Below, one piece after another: positions 9,482 to 18,496 of a stretch of DNA of 48,447 bases. Under the pieces are notes generated by a model. It did not search any database. It was not told the DNA's origin and saw only the letters and a list, made by a program, of their open reading frames with translations. Position 1 is the stretch's first letter. Each line of letters opens with the position of its first letter. Source of the stretch: Rhodothermus sp. (GTDB lineage: Bacteria; Bacteroidota; Rhodothermia; Rhodothermales; Rhodothermaceae); the NCBI GenBank assembly GCA_015487635.1, contig WFPM01000052.1, positions 1 through 48,447 on the forward strand, given 5' to 3'. Position numbers and translations under genes: made by a program.

Positions 9482-12400
9482 TCACGAGCGCACCGGAGCC
9501 GACAGGCGGCGGCTTTCCAGGCGAACCGCTTCGGCGCCGAAGAGGCGCAACGTCTGCTGCATCAGCGTATCGTTGAGTTCGACCAGGCAGCGCCGGCTAA
9601 GCAGGCGCTGGCGGCCGCCCGGTAGCTCAGGGCTGTGCAGGTCGAAGTACAGTTTGCAGCGGCCCGCGTGCTCTCGACAGAGCGCGTGGAAGCGATCGAG
9701 CTGCTCGGGCCGTACCTGCTCCAGATCGAGCTGCACCACCAGCGCATCGACCAGCTCGTCGCGCACCTTCCACATGGGCCACAGCTCGTCCACCAGCATC
9801 TTGACGCTCCCGCCGCGCACTTCCACCTGGCCTTCGACCAGCACGACGGCGTCCACTTCCAGGTAGGGCATGACGCGCTCGAGCACCGAGGAGAAAATAA
9901 CCAGCTCGCCCTGACCGGTAAAGTCTTCGATCGAGGCAAAGGCAAGCGGACGGCCGTTGCGTCCGATCCGCCGCTGCACCTCGGTGATGATGCCGCAGAT
10001 GCGGTGGCGTGGGCGCGCGGGACGGTACGCATGGCCGTTCGCCGTACCGTTTGCGTGTCCGTTGGCCGATCCGTTGCGGGGCGCGTCCGTTTCTTCCAGC
10101 GTACGCGACAGCTCGGCCAGCGTGGTGGTGGCAAAGGCGTTGACTTCGGCACGGTAGGCTTCGAGCGGGTGCCCCGTCACGTAAAAGCCGATCAGCTCAC
10201 GTTCTTCCTTCAGGCAGCGGGCGCGCGACCAGGGCTCCACCACCGGCAAATTGGGCGGCGGCAGGGCCGTGCGCGTCCCGCTTTCGCCGAAGAGCGAGGC
10301 CTGCCCGGCCATCCGGTCGGCCTGTACCTTCTGGGCGTACTGCACGGCCAGGTCGATCGCTTCGACGAGTTGGGCCCGGTGTCCCTCCAGTTCGTCGAGC
10401 GCACCGGCACGGGCCAGCGACTCGAGCACCTTTTTGTTGACGACGCGCAGGTCCAGGTGGCGCACCAGATCGAAAATGGTCTGAAACGGGCCGTGCTTTT
10501 CGCGGGCCTTGAGAATGGCCTCGATGGCGCCCAGCCCCACGCCCTTGATGGCACCCAGGCCGAAGCGAATGCGGCCGTCTTCGACGGTGAAGTGCGCCTG
10601 ACTTCGGTTGATCGACGGCGGCAACAGCTCCAGCCCCATCCGGCGTGCTTCGTCGAGCACCACGGCCAGCTTTTTCGTATCGCCCATTTCGCTGGTCATC
10701 GCCGCCGCCATGAACTCGGCCGGGTAGTTGGCCTTCAGATAGGCCGTCTGGTAGGCTACGATGGAGTAGGCCGCCGAGTGCGACTTGTTGAACCCGTACC
10801 CGGCGAACTTCTCCATCATGTCGAAAATCTCGTCGGCTTTTTCGGTAGAAATGCCGTGCAGACGCGCCGCCCCTTCGCGGAAGATTTCACGCTGACGCTT
10901 CATTTCTTCCACCTTCTTTTTACCCATCGCACGCCTGAGCAGATCGGCCTGGCCAAGGGTGTAGCCGGCGATGACGCGGGCCATTTCCATGACCTGTTCC
11001 TGGTAGACCGGAATGCCGTAGGTGTTTTTCAGGACGGGTTCGAGCAGGGGATGGGGGTACTCGACGGGCTCGAGGCCGTGCTTGCGGGCGATGTAGTTGG
11101 GGATCAGATCCATGGGGCCCGGCCGGTAGAGCGCGTTCATCGCGATCAGGTCGTCGATCGAGGTGGGCTTGAGCTTGCGCAGCCACTCGCGCATGCCCTC
11201 GGATTCAAACTGGAAGATGGCGACCGTCTCGCCCCGCTGGAACAGCTCGAACGTCTTCGGATCGTCGAGCGGGATTTGATCCAGGTCGATCTCGACACCG
11301 TGGTTCTCTTTGATGAGCTGGAGCGCGTCGTTCAGGATGGTGAGCGTCTTCAGCCCGAGGAAGTCCATTTTAAGGAGCCCGAACTCCTCGATCCACTTGC
11401 CGTCGTACTGAGTGGTAACCGTGTCGTTGTCTTTGCCTTTGGCGACGGCCACGGGCACGTAGTCGCTCACGCGGCCGGGTGCGATGATGACGCCGGCCGC
11501 GTGTACGCCGGTGTGGCGCACCGAGCCTTCGAGCACCTCGGCGTAGTGGAGCAGCTTGCGGATCTGCGGATCGTTGCTTTCCTTGAGGGCGCGGAGTTCG
11601 GGCACCTCTTCGTAGGCCTGGGCCAGCGTCACTTTCGGACCGTCGGGGATGAGCTTGGCGATGCGATCGGCTTCGGCCAGGGGGATGCCCAGCACGCGGG
11701 CCACGTCGCGAATGGCCATCTTGGCGCCCATCGTGCCGAAGGTAATGATCTGACAGACGTTCTCCCGGCCGTACTTCTGCACCACGTAGTCGATGACCTT
11801 GCCACGACCCCGGTCGTCGAAGTCGATGTCGATGTCGGGCATCGAGACGCGCTCGGGGTTCAGGAAGCGCTCGAAGAGCAGGTCGTACTTGAGCGGATCG
11901 ATGTTCGTGATACCCAGGCAGTAGGCCACGGCGCTTCCGGCTGCCGAGCCGCGGCCGGGACCGACGCGCACGCCGAGCCGACGGGCAGCCGTGGTGAAGT
12001 CCTGCACGATCAGAAAGTAGCCGGCATAGCCCATTTTTCTGATGATGGCCAGCTCATGCTCCAGCCGCTCGGCCACTTCGTGCGGGAGCGGATCGCCGTA
12101 ACGCCGGCGGGCCCCTTCGAAGACCAGATCCCGCAGATAGGCGTCCATGTCGCCGTTGTATTCGGGCGGGATCGGGTAGTGCGGCATGAGCAGCTTGCCC
12201 GTGGGAAGCTGGAAGCGGCATTTGTCAGCCACTTCGCCGGTGTTGGCCATCATCTCATCGACCAGGTGCGGCTCGATGTCGGCCAGAAGCGCCTGGCGCA
12301 TTTCGGCCGGACTTTTCAGGTAGAACTGGTCGTTGTCGAAGCGCAGCCGGCTCGGATCCGACATGTCCTTGCCCGTCTGCAGACAGAGCAGTACGTCGTG

Positions 12401-13039
12401 TGGCTCGGCATCGGCGCGATCGACGTAGTGCACGTCGTTCGTAGCGATCACCTTGACGCCGTACTCTCGGGCCCACCGGAGCAGAATGGCATTAACCTTC
12501 TTCTGATCAGGAAGCCCGTGATCCTGGATTTCGATGTAATAATCCTCGCCGAACAGTTCCAGATACCACTCGAAAAGCTTGCGGGCGGCTTCTTCGCCCT
12601 TGTGCAGAATGGTCTGCGGAATCTCTCCCTGCAGGCAGCAGGTGGTGGCGATCAGCCCTTCGTGATACTGGGTGAGCAACTCGTGGTCGATGCGGGGCTT
12701 GTAGTAGTAACCTTCCAGGTAGGAGAGCGAGGAGAGTTTGATCAGGTTACGGTAGCCGGTTTCGTTTTTGGCCAGCAGCACCTGGTGGTAGCGGGTGCGC
12801 TCGCTACGGTCGTGGCGACTGGCGGGCGTCAGGTAAAACTCGCAGCCGATAATCGGCTGGACGCCGATTTTTTCGGCGGTGTGGTAAAATTCCGGCACGC
12901 CGAACAGATTGCCGTGGTCGGTGATGGCCACAGCTTCGATCTCGTATTCGGCCGCCCGTTCCAGCAGCGTCTGAATACGGGCTGCGCCGTCAAGGAGCGA
13001 GTACTGGGTGTGGCAGTGCAGATGGCTGAAGCGATGCAT
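9482..13039 (-). CDS. dnaE: DNA polymerase III subunit alpha
   Basis: DnaE is the catalytic subunit of the replicative polymerase. The 1185-residue protein starts MHRFSHLHCHTQYSLLDGAA, the PHP domain with its metal-binding histidines, followed by ITDHGNLFGV. The polymerase active site PDIDIDFDDRGRGKVIDYV lies near residue 400. The fingers region contains GYGFNKSHSAAYSIVAYQTA. A tandem HhH region precedes an OB-fold (ICGIITEVQRRIGRNG ... FTGQGELVIFSS). Between these two lies an unusual linker, about residues 985-1000, built from Asn-Gly-x-Ala repeats (NGHANGTANGHA). Codons upstream of 13039 in this frame cover the divergent next gene and are not part of the protein. Confidence 0.97.
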   Translation of the reverse strand: MHRFSHLHCHTQYSLLDGAARIQTLLERAAEYEIEAVAITDHGNLFGVPEFYHTAEKIGVQPIIGCEFYLTPASRHDRSERTRYHQVLLAKNETGYRNLIKLSSLSYLEGYYYKPRIDHELLTQYHEGLIATTCCLQGEIPQTILHKGEEAARKLFEWYLELFGEDYYIEIQDHGLPDQKKVNAILLRWAREYGVKVIATNDVHYVDRADAEPHDVLLCLQTGKDMSDPSRLRFDNDQFYLKSPAEMRQALLADIEPHLVDEMMANTGEVADKCRFQLPTGKLLMPHYPIPPEYNGDMDAYLRDLVFEGARRRYGDPLPHEVAERLEHELAIIRKMGYAGYFLIVQDFTTAARRLGVRVGPGRGSAAGSAVAYCLGITNIDPLKYDLLFERFLNPERVSMPDIDIDFDDRGRGKVIDYVVQKYGRENVCQIITFGTMGAKMAIRDVARVLGIPLAEADRIAKLIPDGPKVTLAQAYEEVPELRALKESNDPQIRKLLHYAEVLEGSVRHTGVHAAGVIIAPGRVSDYVPVAVAKGKDNDTVTTQYDGKWIEEFGLLKMDFLGLKTLTILNDALQLIKENHGVEIDLDQIPLDDPKTFELFQRGETVAIFQFESEGMREWLRKLKPTSIDDLIAMNALYRPGPMDLIPNYIARKHGLEPVEYPHPLLEPVLKNTYGIPVYQEQVMEMARVIAGYTLGQADLLRRAMGKKKVEEMKRQREIFREGAARLHGISTEKADEIFDMMEKFAGYGFNKSHSAAYSIVAYQTAYLKANYPAEFMAAAMTSEMGDTKKLAVVLDEARRMGLELLPPSINRSQAHFTVEDGRIRFGLGAIKGVGLGAIEAILKAREKHGPFQTIFDLVRHLDLRVVNKKVLESLARAGALDELEGHRAQLVEAIDLAVQYAQKVQADRMAGQASLFGESGTRTALPPPNLPVVEPWSRARCLKEERELIGFYVTGHPLEAYRAEVNAFATTTLAELSRTLEETDAPRNGSANGHANGTANGHAYRPARPRHRICGIITEVQRRIGRNGRPLAFASIEDFTGQGELVIFSSVLERVMPYLEVDAVVLVEGQVEVRGGSVKMLVDELWPMWKVRDELVDALVVQLDLEQVRPEQLDRFHALCREHAGRCKLYFDLHSPELPGGRQRLLSRRCLVELNDTLMQQTLRLFGAEAVRLESRRLSAPVRS

Positions 13040-13174
13040 GGGAAGCTTACGTGAACAGGTTGGCTGACCACCGGCTGCTGTAAGGAACGAAGTTGGGTGA
13101 TCTGATTCAAGAGCTAACCGGAGAATCTTCAGGATAAATGGAGGCGTTAGGAGAAAACCCAAACTGGATCGATC

Positions 13175-13816
13175 ATGCGCACAGGCATTCTCTACCTGGA
13201 CGACCGGCACCTGGAAGATCTGCTGCTGGTGCAGCGATTGGCGCGGGTGCTGAAGCAACTCCCCGCGCCGATGGTGCTGGTGCACGGCAGCGGCGGCCGG
13301 GCCGAGCAGCTTCTGGAAGCCGAAGGCTACGTGCCCGAGCGCCGGAACGGGGTAGTCGTGGCCCGGAGCGATCACGAGCGGACGCTCATCGAGCGCGGCA
13401 TTCGGGAGACCAACCAGCGGCTGGTGGCCGGTCTGAACGAACTGCTGATTCCGGCTGTGGGCATTCAGGGGAGCGATCGCGGGTTGCTCCGGCGCACGGC
13501 CACTGGCACGTTGCAGGTGGGACGCGCGGCGTGGCTGGTGCAGCTGCTCCGGCAGGGTGTCTGGCCCGTCGTGTCCACGCTGGTGGCAACGGAAACCGAG
13601 CAGATCGTCGAGGCCCCGGCGGCCGAGGTGCTGGAAGCGCTTATTTCGATATGGACATCAGAAGTCGTGATCGCACTACTGAGCGAGGAGTTCAGGGATA
13701 TTATGCATGAAGTTGTTAAAAAACAAAAGGTTGATTTGTGGGTGGGGAAACTGGAAGAACTTCCGGAAGCGGTGAAACAGGGAGTTTTTCAGGGGAGTAA
13801 TGCGCTTTCTTCTTGA
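13175..13816 (+). CDS. Acetylglutamate-kinase-like amino acid kinase fold protein, probably degenerate
   Basis: The 213-residue product resembles ArgB-type amino acid kinases in its middle: APMVLVHGSGGRAEQLLEAE matches the VHGGG loop, RETNQRLVAGLNELLIPAVG matches the ...N-x-x-LV-x-x-LN segment, and LQVGRAAWLVQLLRQGVWPVV matches the acetylglutamate-site strand. However, the N-terminal strand with the catalytic lysine (usually KxGG) is replaced by LYLDDRHLED, and the protein is some 50-80 residues shorter than ArgB. Arginine-pathway activity is therefore doubtful. The C-terminal 50 residues (HEVVKKQKVDLWVGKLEEL) look unlike the family. It diverges from dnaE. Confidence 0.72.
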   Translation: MRTGILYLDDRHLEDLLLVQRLARVLKQLPAPMVLVHGSGGRAEQLLEAEGYVPERRNGVVVARSDHERTLIERGIRETNQRLVAGLNELLIPAVGIQGSDRGLLRRTATGTLQVGRAAWLVQLLRQGVWPVVSTLVATETEQIVEAPAAEVLEALISIWTSEVVIALLSEEFRDIMHEVVKKQKVDLWVGKLEELPEAVKQGVFQGSNALSS

Positions 13817-13916: not shown

Positions 13917-14093
13917 ATGAACCGCTTCGAACAACTCCGCGATCTCGTCTTAGGCCTGGAGCAGGATTTCAAAAAGTTCTACGAGAAGGGTAACAAGGCC
14001 GCCGGTACACGCATCCGTAAGGCCATGCAGGAGCTGAAAAAGCTGGCGCAGGAGATCCGGGTAGAAATTCAGGAGAAAAAGAAGGCCATGTAA
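13917..14093 (+). CDS. Histone H1-like protein (Hc1-like, Bacteroidota type)
   Basis: A short 58-residue lysine-rich protein beginning MNRFEQLRDLVLGLEQDF and containing FYEKGNKAAGTRIRKAMQEL, then KKLAQEIRVEIQEKKKAM. This pattern is the small histone H1-like family found across Bacteroidota and related to chlamydial Hc1; such proteins bind DNA through the KGNKAAGTR-type segment and basic helices. AAGGAGG lies 7 bases upstream of the ATG. The gene stands alone with a candidate promoter before it and a strong terminator behind it, which fits an abundantly expressed nucleoid protein. DNA binding is inferred from the family. Confidence 0.87.
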   Translation: MNRFEQLRDLVLGLEQDFKKFYEKGNKAAGTRIRKAMQELKKLAQEIRVEIQEKKKAM

Positions 14094-14159: not shown

Positions 14160-14191
14160 GTTGGATACAGGTGCAGGAGGTGCTTGGGGAT

Positions 14192-15070
14192 ATGTTTCCT
14201 AAAAACAAGTGGATAGTTTTTCTTATTGTCGGACTGATCTCAGGGAATGTGCTGGCTCAGGAGGCCGATACGACGCGGGTTGTCTGGAAGAAAAGCCTGA
14301 GTACGCGCCTTTCGGCCACGCAGGCTTCATTCAGTAACTGGGCCGAAGGTGGCCTGAACACGCTGGCCCTTTCGGGCGCCGTCAACGGTACGTTCGAGCG
14401 CATCTCGCCATCCTGGCGGCAGCTCTACGACGTGCGGTTGACGCTGGGGGTGGTCAAGCAGGATACGCTGGAGGTGCGCAAGGCCGAAGACCGCATCCGG
14501 CTGGCCGCTTCGCTCCAGTACCGGGGCGATGGCTTCTTCAGCCTGTTCAATCCGACGATGTCGGCCGATCTGCGCACGCAGTTCGCTCCGGGCTACAATT
14601 ACACTAAGAACCCGTTTGGCGACGGGCGGAAGCCGCCGGTCAAGGTGTCTGATCTGCTCTCACCGGCCATTCTCAATCAGGCGCTGGGGCTCACCTACCA
14701 GCCGGACGGCTGGTTTCGGCAACGACTGGGCGTGGGCGCCAAGGAAACGATCGTGCTGATCGAGCGACTGCGCACGCTCTATGGGCTGACGCCGGATCAG
14801 GCCGTGCGCTTCGAGATGGGCTTCGAGTCGCGCACGGAGCTGGACCGGGAGCTGTTCGAGAACGTGCGTCTGAAGTCGCGGCTGGGGCTTTTTGCTGCCT
14901 TCAACAAGCCGGATCTGCCCGATATGCTCTGGGAAAATCTGCTGGAGATGCAGGTCAATAGCTGGCTGGGCACCAGCCTGGAAGTGGTGGCGCTCTACGA
15001 TCGTGATGTGAGCAGCGAAGTCCAGCTCAAAGAGGTGTTCTCGCTGGGAATCACGATCAAGTTGCTTTGA
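14192..15070 (+). CDS. DUF3078 domain-containing exported protein
   Basis: The 292-residue product begins with a signal peptide (WIVFLIVGLISGNVLAQEAD, cleavage after LAQ). The mature part has alternating hydrophobic strands, with the DUF3078 signatures ASFSNWAEGGLNTLALSGA near the N-terminus and a closing segment EVQLKEVFSLGITIKLL. The repeated amphipathic strands and the aromatic/hydrophobic C-terminus suggest an outer-membrane barrel, although the family has no established function. The ATG at 14192 is preferred over an upstream GTG at 14171 because the signal peptide starts there and CAGGAGG lies 11 bases before it. It is followed 16 bp later by the membrane peptidase gene. Confidence 0.85.
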   Translation: MFPKNKWIVFLIVGLISGNVLAQEADTTRVVWKKSLSTRLSATQASFSNWAEGGLNTLALSGAVNGTFERISPSWRQLYDVRLTLGVVKQDTLEVRKAEDRIRLAASLQYRGDGFFSLFNPTMSADLRTQFAPGYNYTKNPFGDGRKPPVKVSDLLSPAILNQALGLTYQPDGWFRQRLGVGAKETIVLIERLRTLYGLTPDQAVRFEMGFESRTELDRELFENVRLKSRLGLFAAFNKPDLPDMLWENLLEMQVNSWLGTSLEVVALYDRDVSSEVQLKEVFSLGITIKLL

Positions 15071-15086
15071 GCGGACCTACATGTAA

Positions 15087-17249
15087 ATGCCGCGCGAGCG
15101 AACGCCGGGGATTGCAGGCTGCGGACTTGTCTACGCCGGGCTGAGTCTGGCGCTCTGGCCGGTGCCTGTGGTGGGGCTGCTGCACGTGGAGTCGGCCGCA
15201 CTGGTGGCGCTGACGGCCTTTTTCGTGGCAGGCTGGTGGGCGTGGGGACATTTCAGGCGGGGTGGCCGTCTGGCAGACGCATTGCGCCGACAACTCCTGC
15301 TGCTCTTCATCCCCTGGGCCCTGCTCACGCTGACGATGCTCTGGCGGCCCAACTGCGACTACCTTCGCGGTCTGGTATTTTTCCTGCTGTTTCCGCCCGC
15401 AAGCGTTGTGCTGGCCGTGGCGCTGGCCGAGGCGCTGCACGGTGCGGGGGTGCGGCACGGCCGCCGCTGGCTGATAGGAATCGGGCTGGGCCTGTGCACG
15501 TTGCCGGTCGCCTACGATCTGCTACTTCATCCGCAGCTCTACACGTACAACCACGTCTTCGGAGGGGTGCTGGGGCCGCTTTACGACGAAGATCCGGCGC
15601 TGCGTCCGGGGCTATTGAGCTTTCGGATGCTGACGTTGCTCTGGGCGCTGTGGCTGGCGCTGGTGGCCCGTTTTCACCGGTCGCCCCGGTTGCTCTGGCC
15701 CGGGTGGTGGCCGGCTCTGGGTGGCGTTACGTTGTTGCTGGGCGCCTTTTACGTGCTGGCCGTGCCGCTGGGGTTCAACACGTCCACGGCCGCGTTGAAG
15801 CGCGCGCTGCCCGGTCGGGTCGTGCAGGGGGTGATAACGTTGCACTACGATCCCCGGTGGCTGACGCTGGAGGAAGCGAAGCTGCGGGCGCTTCGGGCCG
15901 CCTACGACTACGAGCGACTGGCCCGACGCCTGGGTATTGCGGAGCCTGAGCCTGTGCAGGTGTTCGTCTTTGGCGATCCGGAACGGCGCGCGCAGCTGAC
16001 CGGGGCGCGTTACACGAGCGTAGCGCTGGTCTGGCTGGCAAGGCCGCAGGTGCATCTGCTACTGGATCGCTTCGATCGGAGCATTGCCCACGAACTGGCG
16101 CATGTGCTCGTGCGCGGCTGGGGCATCCCTAGGCTGGGCATTTCCCCGCGGATCGGGCTGGTCGAGGGGTTGGCGGTGGCCGTGGAGCCGCCGGACGGAC
16201 GCCCGACGCCGCACGAGCAGGCGGCCGTGGCCGCCACGCTGGCCCGGGATCGCAACGCATCGCTTACCGAGCAGGTGGCAGCAATGCTCGGTCCCCGCGG
16301 GTTCTGGACGAGCCGCAGCGCCGTGGCCTACACGCTGACCGGCTCGTTCGTGCGCTATCTGATCGATCGCTACGGGCCGGCGCCGCTGCGTCAGGTGTAC
16401 GGGGGGCGGTCGTTTCGGGCAGCTTACGGTCGCACGCGCGACAGCCTGCTGGCCGACTGGGAACGGTTGCTTTTCCGCATACCCTATGTGGACCGCAGCG
16501 CCTACGCGTTTATGAAACGGCGCTTTGGCGTGCCGTCGCTGTTCGAACGGCGCTGCCCGCACTACGTGCCGCCTTATGCGCGCCGCTACGAGGCGGCCCG
16601 GTGGGCGCTCGTGCGGGGCGACACGCTCCGGGCCGAGGCGTTGCTGATGCAGGCGCTTCGTCAGAAGCCTGGCTTTCTCCCGGCGCTGGAGCGCTGGGCG
16701 CATCTGCAACTGCTCCGGGGCCATGCCGATACGGTCCGGGCGCGGCTGGCCGGGGCCGACACGACACAGGCGCTACGACTTCGGCTGCATGGGGCCGACG
16801 CGCTGGCGCTTACCGGGGCGGCCGATTCGGCGCGGACGTTGTACCGAGCGCTCTACCGCGCTTGGCCGTCGTACGATCTGAGCGGACGTGGTGCCCTTGC
16901 GCTGCGCTACGCGGTGGCTGTCCGGCCGGATTCGCTTTGGCGCCTGCTGCGCCGGCTCGAAAATCCCCGCGAGCGCTGCAACATCGGCGTGCTGAACGTA
17001 TCTTGGGCACAGACGCTACCGCCGGGCTGGGATGCGACGCTCCGCTGGGCGGTGCAGTGGTGGCGACTGGGGTGCGTGGAAGATTCTCTGAACGCAATCG
17101 CAGACGGTCGGGCGCTGGTCTCTTCTTTACGGCAAGCCGGTGCTTTCAATGCTGCCGCCTGCGTGCAGGAGACGATCGCATGGCTTACATGGCTGCGCAA
17201 CGCATATCCGGAGCACCGCTCGGTCTGCTGTGCCTACTGTGCTTGGTGA
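15087..17249 (+). CDS. Multi-pass membrane protein with gluzincin-type zinc peptidase motif and helical C-terminus
   Basis: The 720-residue protein starts with about seven hydrophobic segments within residues 1-240. These are followed by a soluble region in which IAHELAHVLV gives a canonical HExxH (His335, Glu336, His339) and GLVEGLAVAVE supplies a Glu360 twenty residues later, the arrangement of gluzincin metallopeptidases where the Glu is the third zinc ligand. The part beyond residue 490 (RRYEAARWALVRGDTLRAEA, LRGHADTVRARLAG) looks like TPR-type helical repeats. I do not know a named family with this combination. It lies between a DUF3078 gene and the T9SS plug gene, and its end overlaps the latter by 70 bp, which suggests coupled expression. 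Peptidase activity is inferred from the motif only. Confidence 0.75.
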   Translation: MPRERTPGIAGCGLVYAGLSLALWPVPVVGLLHVESAALVALTAFFVAGWWAWGHFRRGGRLADALRRQLLLLFIPWALLTLTMLWRPNCDYLRGLVFFLLFPPASVVLAVALAEALHGAGVRHGRRWLIGIGLGLCTLPVAYDLLLHPQLYTYNHVFGGVLGPLYDEDPALRPGLLSFRMLTLLWALWLALVARFHRSPRLLWPGWWPALGGVTLLLGAFYVLAVPLGFNTSTAALKRALPGRVVQGVITLHYDPRWLTLEEAKLRALRAAYDYERLARRLGIAEPEPVQVFVFGDPERRAQLTGARYTSVALVWLARPQVHLLLDRFDRSIAHELAHVLVRGWGIPRLGISPRIGLVEGLAVAVEPPDGRPTPHEQAAVAATLARDRNASLTEQVAAMLGPRGFWTSRSAVAYTLTGSFVRYLIDRYGPAPLRQVYGGRSFRAAYGRTRDSLLADWERLLFRIPYVDRSAYAFMKRRFGVPSLFERRCPHYVPPYARRYEAARWALVRGDTLRAEALLMQALRQKPGFLPALERWAHLQLLRGHADTVRARLAGADTTQALRLRLHGADALALTGAADSARTLYRALYRAWPSYDLSGRGALALRYAVAVRPDSLWRLLRRLENPRERCNIGVLNVSWAQTLPPGWDATLRWAVQWWRLGCVEDSLNAIADGRALVSSLRQAGAFNAAACVQETIAWLTWLRNAYPEHRSVCCAYCAW

Positions 17250-18496
17250 TGGCCTGTGCGGGCGCTCGCGAGAGTGGTCGGCAGCGGTCGCGTGTCGTAC
17301 AGCGCCCGGCGCCGACGGTCTCGACGGTGGGGCCCGAGCTGCAACCCGACGCCGAAGTGGTGGGGCAGGTCCAACTCTACCGGGGCGACGACGAGCGGCA
17401 ATGGCCGATTCTGCTGTTGGGCGGCCGTGACGTCCTGACGCTCCGGTTCGATCTGCTGAGTGAACAGGGACGGCCGCTTTCGATCTACTTCTACCATGCT
17501 GATCACGCGTGGCGGCGTGATCTGATGCCCATTGAGTACCTCGATGCGTTTGCGCGGGACGATCTGACCGATTATGCGCCGTCGGAGCGCACAGCCATTC
17601 CCTACCAGCATTACATCTATCGCTTTCCCAACGAAAACATCCGCTTTCGGTTGAGCGGCAACTACATCCTGCGCGTCACCGAACAGGGACAGGAGGAAGC
17701 TGTGCTGTTCGAGCGTCCTTTTTTTGTGGTGGAGGGACGGACGCGGGTAGAGGTCAGTCCGGCAAATTTCCCGGGCGCGCAGGCTTTCCCGTCGGTGCAG
17801 TTGATGGCCCGCTTTCGGCCGCCGGACGAGCTTGCCGGGGCCGTGTTCGACTACGTGGTCTGCTTTGCCCGCAACGGCGCTTTCGAGGCGATGCGCTGCA
17901 GTCGCCGGACGTTGCTGGACGAGCAGCCAATGCTGAGCTTTCTCCTGGAGGAGCCGTTTCCGCCGGAGCCGGCCGACTACTTTCTGGATCTGAGTGCGCT
18001 CCGGCCGGGCGGGCAGCTCGAACGGGTGGATCGTGCGACGGTGCCGCCGGAGGTCTGGCTGGCGCCCGACTACGTGCGCTTTGGTGGGAGCGACACCGAT
18101 CCGTTGCTGGCGGGCCAGTCGGTGATTGGCGCGGTCGTACGCGATGCACCGGGCGATCCGCACCGGACGGCCGAGTACGTGCGCGTGCATTTCCGACTGG
18201 AGCCGGAGCGACCCTGGCGGCAGCCGCTGTGGCTGGTGGGAAGCTTTTCCGGGTGGTTTCGGCGCCCTTCCTACCAGATGCGCTGGAATCCGGATCGGCG
18301 GCGCTACGAAGGCGAAGCGCTCGTCAAGCAGGGATGGCATGCCTATCGATACGTGCTGGACGGTGCGCAACCGGCGCGGGCCAATGCCGAGGCCCTGCCG
18401 CGGTCCGAGAACATCTATACGGCGTTCGTCTACTACCGCGATGCAAGCCGGGGGAGCGATCGGTTGCTGGGCGTCGGGCATCAGACCGGCCGGTAG
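17180..18496 (+). CDS. Type IX secretion system plug-like lipoprotein (DUF5103)
   Basis: The 438-residue protein starts with a lipoprotein signal, LLCLLCLVMAC, with lipobox Cys26. The region from about residue 55 (VGQVQLYRGDDERQWPILLL) through SIYFYHADHAWRRDLMPIEY and NENIRFRLSGNYILRV matches the DUF5103 family, the type IX secretion plug. In Flavobacterium this protein closes the periplasmic mouth of the SprA translocon when no cargo is present. The ATG at 17180 is chosen because it starts the lipoprotein signal and has GCAGGAGA upstream; it lies inside the end of the upstream gene. The sprA gene itself is not in this window. A glycogen-binding-like segment, PLWLVGSFSGWFRR, lies in the second half, as in relatives. 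Confidence 0.87.
   Translation: MAYMAAQRISGAPLGLLCLLCLVMACAGARESGRQRSRVVQRPAPTVSTVGPELQPDAEVVGQVQLYRGDDERQWPILLLGGRDVLTLRFDLLSEQGRPLSIYFYHADHAWRRDLMPIEYLDAFARDDLTDYAPSERTAIPYQHYIYRFPNENIRFRLSGNYILRVTEQGQEEAVLFERPFFVVEGRTRVEVSPANFPGAQAFPSVQLMARFRPPDELAGAVFDYVVCFARNGAFEAMRCSRRTLLDEQPMLSFLLEEPFPPEPADYFLDLSALRPGGQLERVDRATVPPEVWLAPDYVRFGGSDTDPLLAGQSVIGAVVRDAPGDPHRTAEYVRVHFRLEPERPWRQPLWLVGSFSGWFRRPSYQMRWNPDRRRYEGEALVKQGWHAYRYVLDGAQPARANAEALPRSENIYTAFVYYRDASRGSDRLLGVGHQTGR

Follow-up and report, generated by a model that had tools for sequence, protein, structure and literature searches.

In bacteria of the order Rhodothermales, a gene for a membrane protein with an HExxH motif lies directly upstream of the gene for the plug of the type IX secretion system (T9SS), which raises the question whether this protein serves the T9SS or acts more generally in the cell envelope. 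The locus lies within the window, i.e., the whole stretch of 48,447 nucleotides analysed here (Rhodothermus sp., contig WFPM01000052.1). The accessible text of two papers describes the plug as sealing the SprA translocon (PMC10994853; PMC7463736), and in that of a third the binding of PorW/PorD is proposed to displace the plug (PMC8754138); a protease partner of the plug is not mentioned in the accessible text of these three papers. Relatives of DUF3078 (P. gingivalis PG1786), the product of the next gene upstream, and of the plug were predicted to be T9SS components by phyletic profile (PMC5053529). For the window, an earlier note had proposed a protease partner that could process T9SS cargo, remove the plug or monitor secretion.

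The gene row and its conservation within Rhodothermales

The locus comprises the following genes:
9482 to 13375, minus strand: dnaE
13175 to 13816: kinase-like (AA_kinase) gene, PF00696, divergent from dnaE, in the syntenic block
13917 to 14093: 58-residue Hc1 histone H1-like gene, PF07432 (E 1.9e-26), immediately 5' of the DUF3078 gene
14171 to 15070, plus strand: DUF3078 outer-membrane-type gene, PF11276 (E 9e-17)
15087 to 17249, plus strand: gene of the 720-residue membrane gluzincin-TPR protein, an open reading frame kept in 43 of 60 relatives of the order (model pLDDT 87.1)
17180 to 18496, plus strand: T9SS plug (DUF5103) gene, NF052315 (NCBIfam T9SS_plug equivalog, E 4e-50) and PF17116 (E 3e-27)

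Open reading frames and domain matches agree with the row of DUF3078, 720-residue protein and plug that the earlier note had described, including the overlap of 70 bp. The DUF3078 gene probably starts at the ATG at 14192, its signal peptide being MFPKNKWIVFLIVGLISGNVLAQ, and the reading frame of the 720-residue protein starts 17 bp past the final DUF3078 base. The ATG of the plug gene at 17180 is preceded by AGGAG, a good ribosome-binding site, resulting in an overlap with the protease gene of exactly 70 bp. According to curated models the adjoining gene encodes a true plug of the Fjoh/PG2092 type. In Rhodothermales the gene of the 720-residue protein is probably co-transcribed with those of DUF3078 and the plug. 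Relatives of the small Hc1 gene were found in 18 of the 22 sequence sets compared.

The conservation of the row was followed in a sample of 60 relatives from the order, in which adjacency was judged manually from the gene coordinates. A homologue of the protease is encoded in 43 of these genomes and both protease and plug in 42; in 38 of the 42 the two genes are adjacent on the same strand with the protease first, and these genomes belong to 12 families (f1, f2, f4-f13). The exceptions are three f3 genomes and G043. Conservation of the pair beyond this species, which the earlier note had named as a test of its proposal, is therefore extensive. Since the conserved block is longer than the pair, reaching from dnaE on the other strand over the kinase-like gene and the 58-residue Hc1 gene to DUF3078, protease and plug, the adjacency is real but partly reflects a general conservation of gene order in Rhodothermales.

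Six genomes encode the plug without the protease (G030, G039, G051, G047, G053 and G058), with SprA present in both of those tested. In three of them, G053, G047 and G058 (loci L038, L039 and L040), the DUF3078 gene and the plug gene are still adjacent. This favors DUF3078 as the partner linked to the T9SS and agrees with its earlier phyletic prediction as a T9SS component (PMC5053529). The reverse case of a protease without plug is limited in the 60 genomes to G027, in which the contig ends about 100 bp past the match. In family f14 (G019, G029, G038) SprA is present, and plug, DUF3078 and protease were not found; the order includes genomes in which the gene of a T9SS-type translocon occurs and a plug could not be detected. 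This co-absence was not counted as support because it is explained by a single block deletion.

Domain architecture and conserved residues

The following features were assigned to the 720-residue protein, all on the plus strand:
15111 to 15770: seven-helix membrane domain, residues 9-228 (AlphaFold2 helices; positive-inside loop charges in 133 homologues; N-terminus predicted inside, C-terminus outside)
15354 to 15356: C90, in the predicted periplasmic loop joining helices 3 and 4 (putative disulfide with C490)
15528 to 15590: conserved, predicted periplasmic loop, residues 148-168, HPQLYTYNHVFGGVLGPLYDE (conservation among 133 homologues)
15792 to 16568: gluzincin (MA-clan) domain, residues 236-494 (model of the domain alone with pLDDT 95.8; weak gluzincin fold matches)
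16089 to 16103: HExxH, H335-E336-L-A-H339 (133/133 homologues)
16164 to 16166: E360 in GLVEG, candidate third zinc ligand (133/133 homologues)
16329 to 16331: Y415, candidate catalytic tyrosine by analogy with other gluzincins (133/133 homologues)
16554 to 16556: C490, in the linker past the gluzincin domain (Cys in 131/133 homologues), candidate disulfide partner of C90
16572 to 17204: TPR-like helical repeat tail, residues 496-706 (AlphaFold2 helices; TPR models match other members; the family profile matches PDB TPR chains)

The AlphaFold2 model (pLDDT 87.1, pTM 0.87) contains membrane-length helices at residues 9-22/26-29, 33-57, 62-85, 92-119, 125-147, 175-198 and 207-228, followed by a mixed alpha/beta gluzincin domain and the helical-repeat tail, in agreement with the seven helices, the HExxH...E motif and the TPR-like tail that the earlier note had read from the sequence. 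By Pfam, TPRs are detected in other members of the family and barely in the 720-residue protein itself (TPR_19, E 0.24). Averaged over 133 homologues, the number of lysine and arginine residues is high in loops 2, 4 and 6 (2.3, 2.5 and 3.1) and low in loops 1, 3 and 5 (0.3, 0.5 and 0.8; loop 5 is acidic), suggesting that the N-terminus is inside. By this charge rule the gluzincin domain and the TPR tail are predicted to be periplasmic.

H335, E336, H339 and E360, whose lack of conservation among homologues would, according to the earlier note, have refuted its proposal, are invariant in all 133 sequences, as is G306. The two features that mark MA-clan gluzincins, HExxH with a downstream glutamate and a gluzincin fold, are both present, the former in 133/133 homologues and the latter in the model of the domain (pLDDT 95.8). 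We infer that the protein would bind zinc and act as a peptidase.

Moreover, C90 and C490 are both cysteine in 126 of the 133 homologues. In L035, in which both sites are aligned, they were lost together, once; the other exceptions are in part due to truncation or local misalignment. This near-invariance and the joint loss suggest a disulfide between C90 and C490, both predicted on the periplasmic side, so that an interdomain disulfide is likely. Within the loop of residues 148-168, P149, N155, G159, G163, Y166 and D167 are each conserved in at least 92% of the 133 homologues, and the consensus in the wider family is PQxYFYNHxxGxFPGxIYDE.

Distribution and gene neighbourhoods beyond the order

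In a profile search of 395 genomes of the phylum, full-length homologues were found in many Bacteroidota families. Comparing the searches for protease and plug outside the order, no adjacency of the two genes was seen among the matches listed (about 32 genomes), and none of 30 gene neighbourhoods from Bacteroidota families outside Rhodothermales, each spanning some 6 to 18 kb, contains a plug gene. In families f24, f40, f45, f46 and f54 the protease is present and no plug was detected by two models in the genomes tested; in f22, f25, f28, f30, f33 and f38 the plug is present and a family-level match of the protease was not obtained. SprA_N was detected in 40/40 Bacteroidota genomes tested, with or without protease or plug. 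In the genomes G131, G175, G182 and G185 (f40) as well as G063 and G138 (f24) SprA is present and neither of two models found a plug; either some lineages with SprA lack the plug, or it has diverged beyond detection there.

Beyond the phylum, a named genome scan with alignment A1 reached Desulfobacterota, Myxococcota (Pyxidicoccus), Dadabacteria and Ignavibacteria. Nine such genomes all encode a full-length homologue (9/9), and SprA_N was found in one of them, an Ignavibacteria genome (1/9); as some of the nine assemblies are drafts or derive from metagenomes, one missing gene carries little weight. The strongest SprA-less case is provided by two Pyxidicoccus genomes of 13.4-13.5 Mb. The family is hence not limited to T9SS organisms, its homologues occurring in SprA-less Pyxidicoccus, Desulfobacterota and Dadabacteria, nor is it found wherever plug and SprA occur together, as G053, G030, G158, G240 and G065 gave no family-level protease match. 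In an approximate, midpoint-rooted FastTree phylogeny of 114 sequences the Rhodothermales sequences group together beside Balneolales-type ones (L080 is f18), which suggests that the family was mostly inherited vertically.

Outside Rhodothermales, frequent neighbours are envelope and housekeeping genes such as murA, a GT9 glycosyltransferase and proline dehydrogenase. The murA gene lies upstream of the homologue in f23, f26, f29, f44, f46 and Ignavibacteria, and it is directly upstream in loci L101, L102, L103, L108, L109, L111, L113, L117, L118, L122 and L174. In five Desulfobacterota/Dadabacteria-type loci (L178, L182, L185, L186 and L187) lspA, encoding signal peptidase II, follows directly downstream; in the same five loci a riboflavin-synthase-like gene comes after lspA. 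The neighbours vary by lineage and do not converge on one pathway.

Role of the family and comparison with known proteases

As the main reading, a dedicated T9SS partner was rejected on this distribution, with plugs lacking the protease and proteases lacking plug or SprA. What stands of the earlier proposal is the conserved membrane gluzincin-like protein, kept between DUF3078 and plug across the order (38/42); a protease dedicated to plug or cargo is unlikely, given homologues in SprA-less phyla and the lack of adjacency outside the order among the matches listed. As the protein is absent from many lineages with plug and T9SS and present in phyla without SprA, its core function is unlikely to be owed to the T9SS, and its occurrence in bacteria without T9SS makes a general enzyme of the cell envelope probable. 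We therefore favor, with a probability of roughly 0.6, a broad family of membrane-anchored periplasmic gluzincins that likely cleave or clear envelope proteins, with a core role independent of the T9SS. Anchored in the inner membrane, the putative zinc metallopeptidase would cut or remove periplasmic or envelope proteins; its TPR tail might hold a substrate or partner, and the disulfide C90-C490 together with loop 148-168 may lock the catalytic domain in place relative to the membrane domain. This main task would probably not involve the T9SS; in Rhodothermales the gene lies in a conserved block beside two T9SS-linked genes, those of DUF3078 and the plug.

Counting against such a general function, the gene order in 12 families and the lack, in the 60 genomes, of a protease without plug except in G027 also fit a T9SS role in Rhodothermales. 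There, a general envelope protease might have been recruited for the turnover of plug, DUF3078 or stalled SprA, or for cargo before export, which would explain its place between two T9SS-linked genes in 38/42 genomes, both with relatives predicted as T9SS components (PMC5053529), and that it never occurs without plug in the 60 genomes, bar one contig end. However, the family is present in SprA-less genomes, the six genomes with plug and without protease retain SprA where tested (two of two), protease and plug lie apart in f3 and G043, and the synteny takes in unrelated genes, making a T9SS-specific recruitment rather unlikely. It is quite improbable that in Rhodothermales the protein has taken on housekeeping proteolysis for the T9SS translocon, cleaving or clearing plug, DUF3078 or stalled SprA, with relatives elsewhere serving other outer-membrane machines.

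The neighbourhoods outside the order might instead point to an enzyme of lipoprotein or peptidoglycan maturation with a lipoprotein, a signal peptide or a cell-wall-linked protein as substrate. The five loci with lspA directly downstream, murA upstream in f23, f26, f29, f44, f46 and Ignavibacteria and an active site tethered to the membrane are in line with this; but neighbours that differ across lineages may be neutral, and neither lspA nor murA adjoins the protease in Rhodothermales, so that we regard this as quite unlikely, too. A sensor-type protein, with the seven-helix domain as receptor and a gluzincin domain used for signalling instead of bulk proteolysis, would account for the strong conservation of the membrane domain and its loop 148-168, which nearly equals that of the active site. 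With the protease predicted to be periplasmic and no recurrent regulator gene in the neighbourhoods examined, it is highly improbable. The general envelope protease preferred here corrects the inference that a gene adjoining the plug is a part of the T9SS; the lasting partner of the plug in this locus is DUF3078.

Compared to known proteases, this is apparently an undescribed family, i.e., a widespread membrane-tethered, predicted periplasmic gluzincin whose active site is invariant and which carries a TPR tail; a narrow literature search found no description of it, and phage records gave no match. No Pfam or NCBIfam model matched here spans the full architecture, and no M48 model matched. Peptidase_MA_2 (PF13485) covers the same active-site region and matches 14 of 34 members of the A2 alignment at E <=0.01 (best 3.8e-8), but stays below its cut-off of 32.4 bits for the 720-residue protein (18.3 bits) and for the domain alone (22.1 bits, E 1.5e-4), and the model leaves out both the seven-helix domain and the TPR tail. 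A PDB sequence search with the whole protein gave one chance match and with the profile of the protease domain none, while the family profile was topped by TPR and other helical-repeat proteins. In a fold search with the gluzincin domain alone, the 43 best matches were M9, M1, M30 and M61 peptidases, none below E 0.001, the best being an M9 collagenase with a TM-score of 0.59 by query length at a weak E of 2.4e-3. The solved gluzincins (M9 collagenase, M1 LTA4H/APN, M30 lugdulysin, M61) thus share the catalytic fold, HExxH...E and likely the catalytic tyrosine, whereas the fold similarity is weak and no sequence-level PDB match to the protease domain was obtained at E 5.

BepA of E. coli is an M48 protease with TPRs that functions in outer-membrane assembly and quality control. 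To our knowledge, no seven-helix membrane domain has been described for it. It is the top whole-chain fold match, with TPR-level profile matches, yet the TM-score is only 0.18/0.28, and BepA is absent from the 50 best fold matches of the protease domain alone. A true BepA relative was ruled out, since the whole-chain TM-score is very low and the domain alone resembles other gluzincins. By the charge-rule topology, the 720-residue protein shares with BepA the domain order, a periplasmic metalloprotease followed by TPRs. The resemblance is limited to this layout, and envelope protein quality control or turnover would by analogy be the most plausible role of the anchored protease and its TPR tail.
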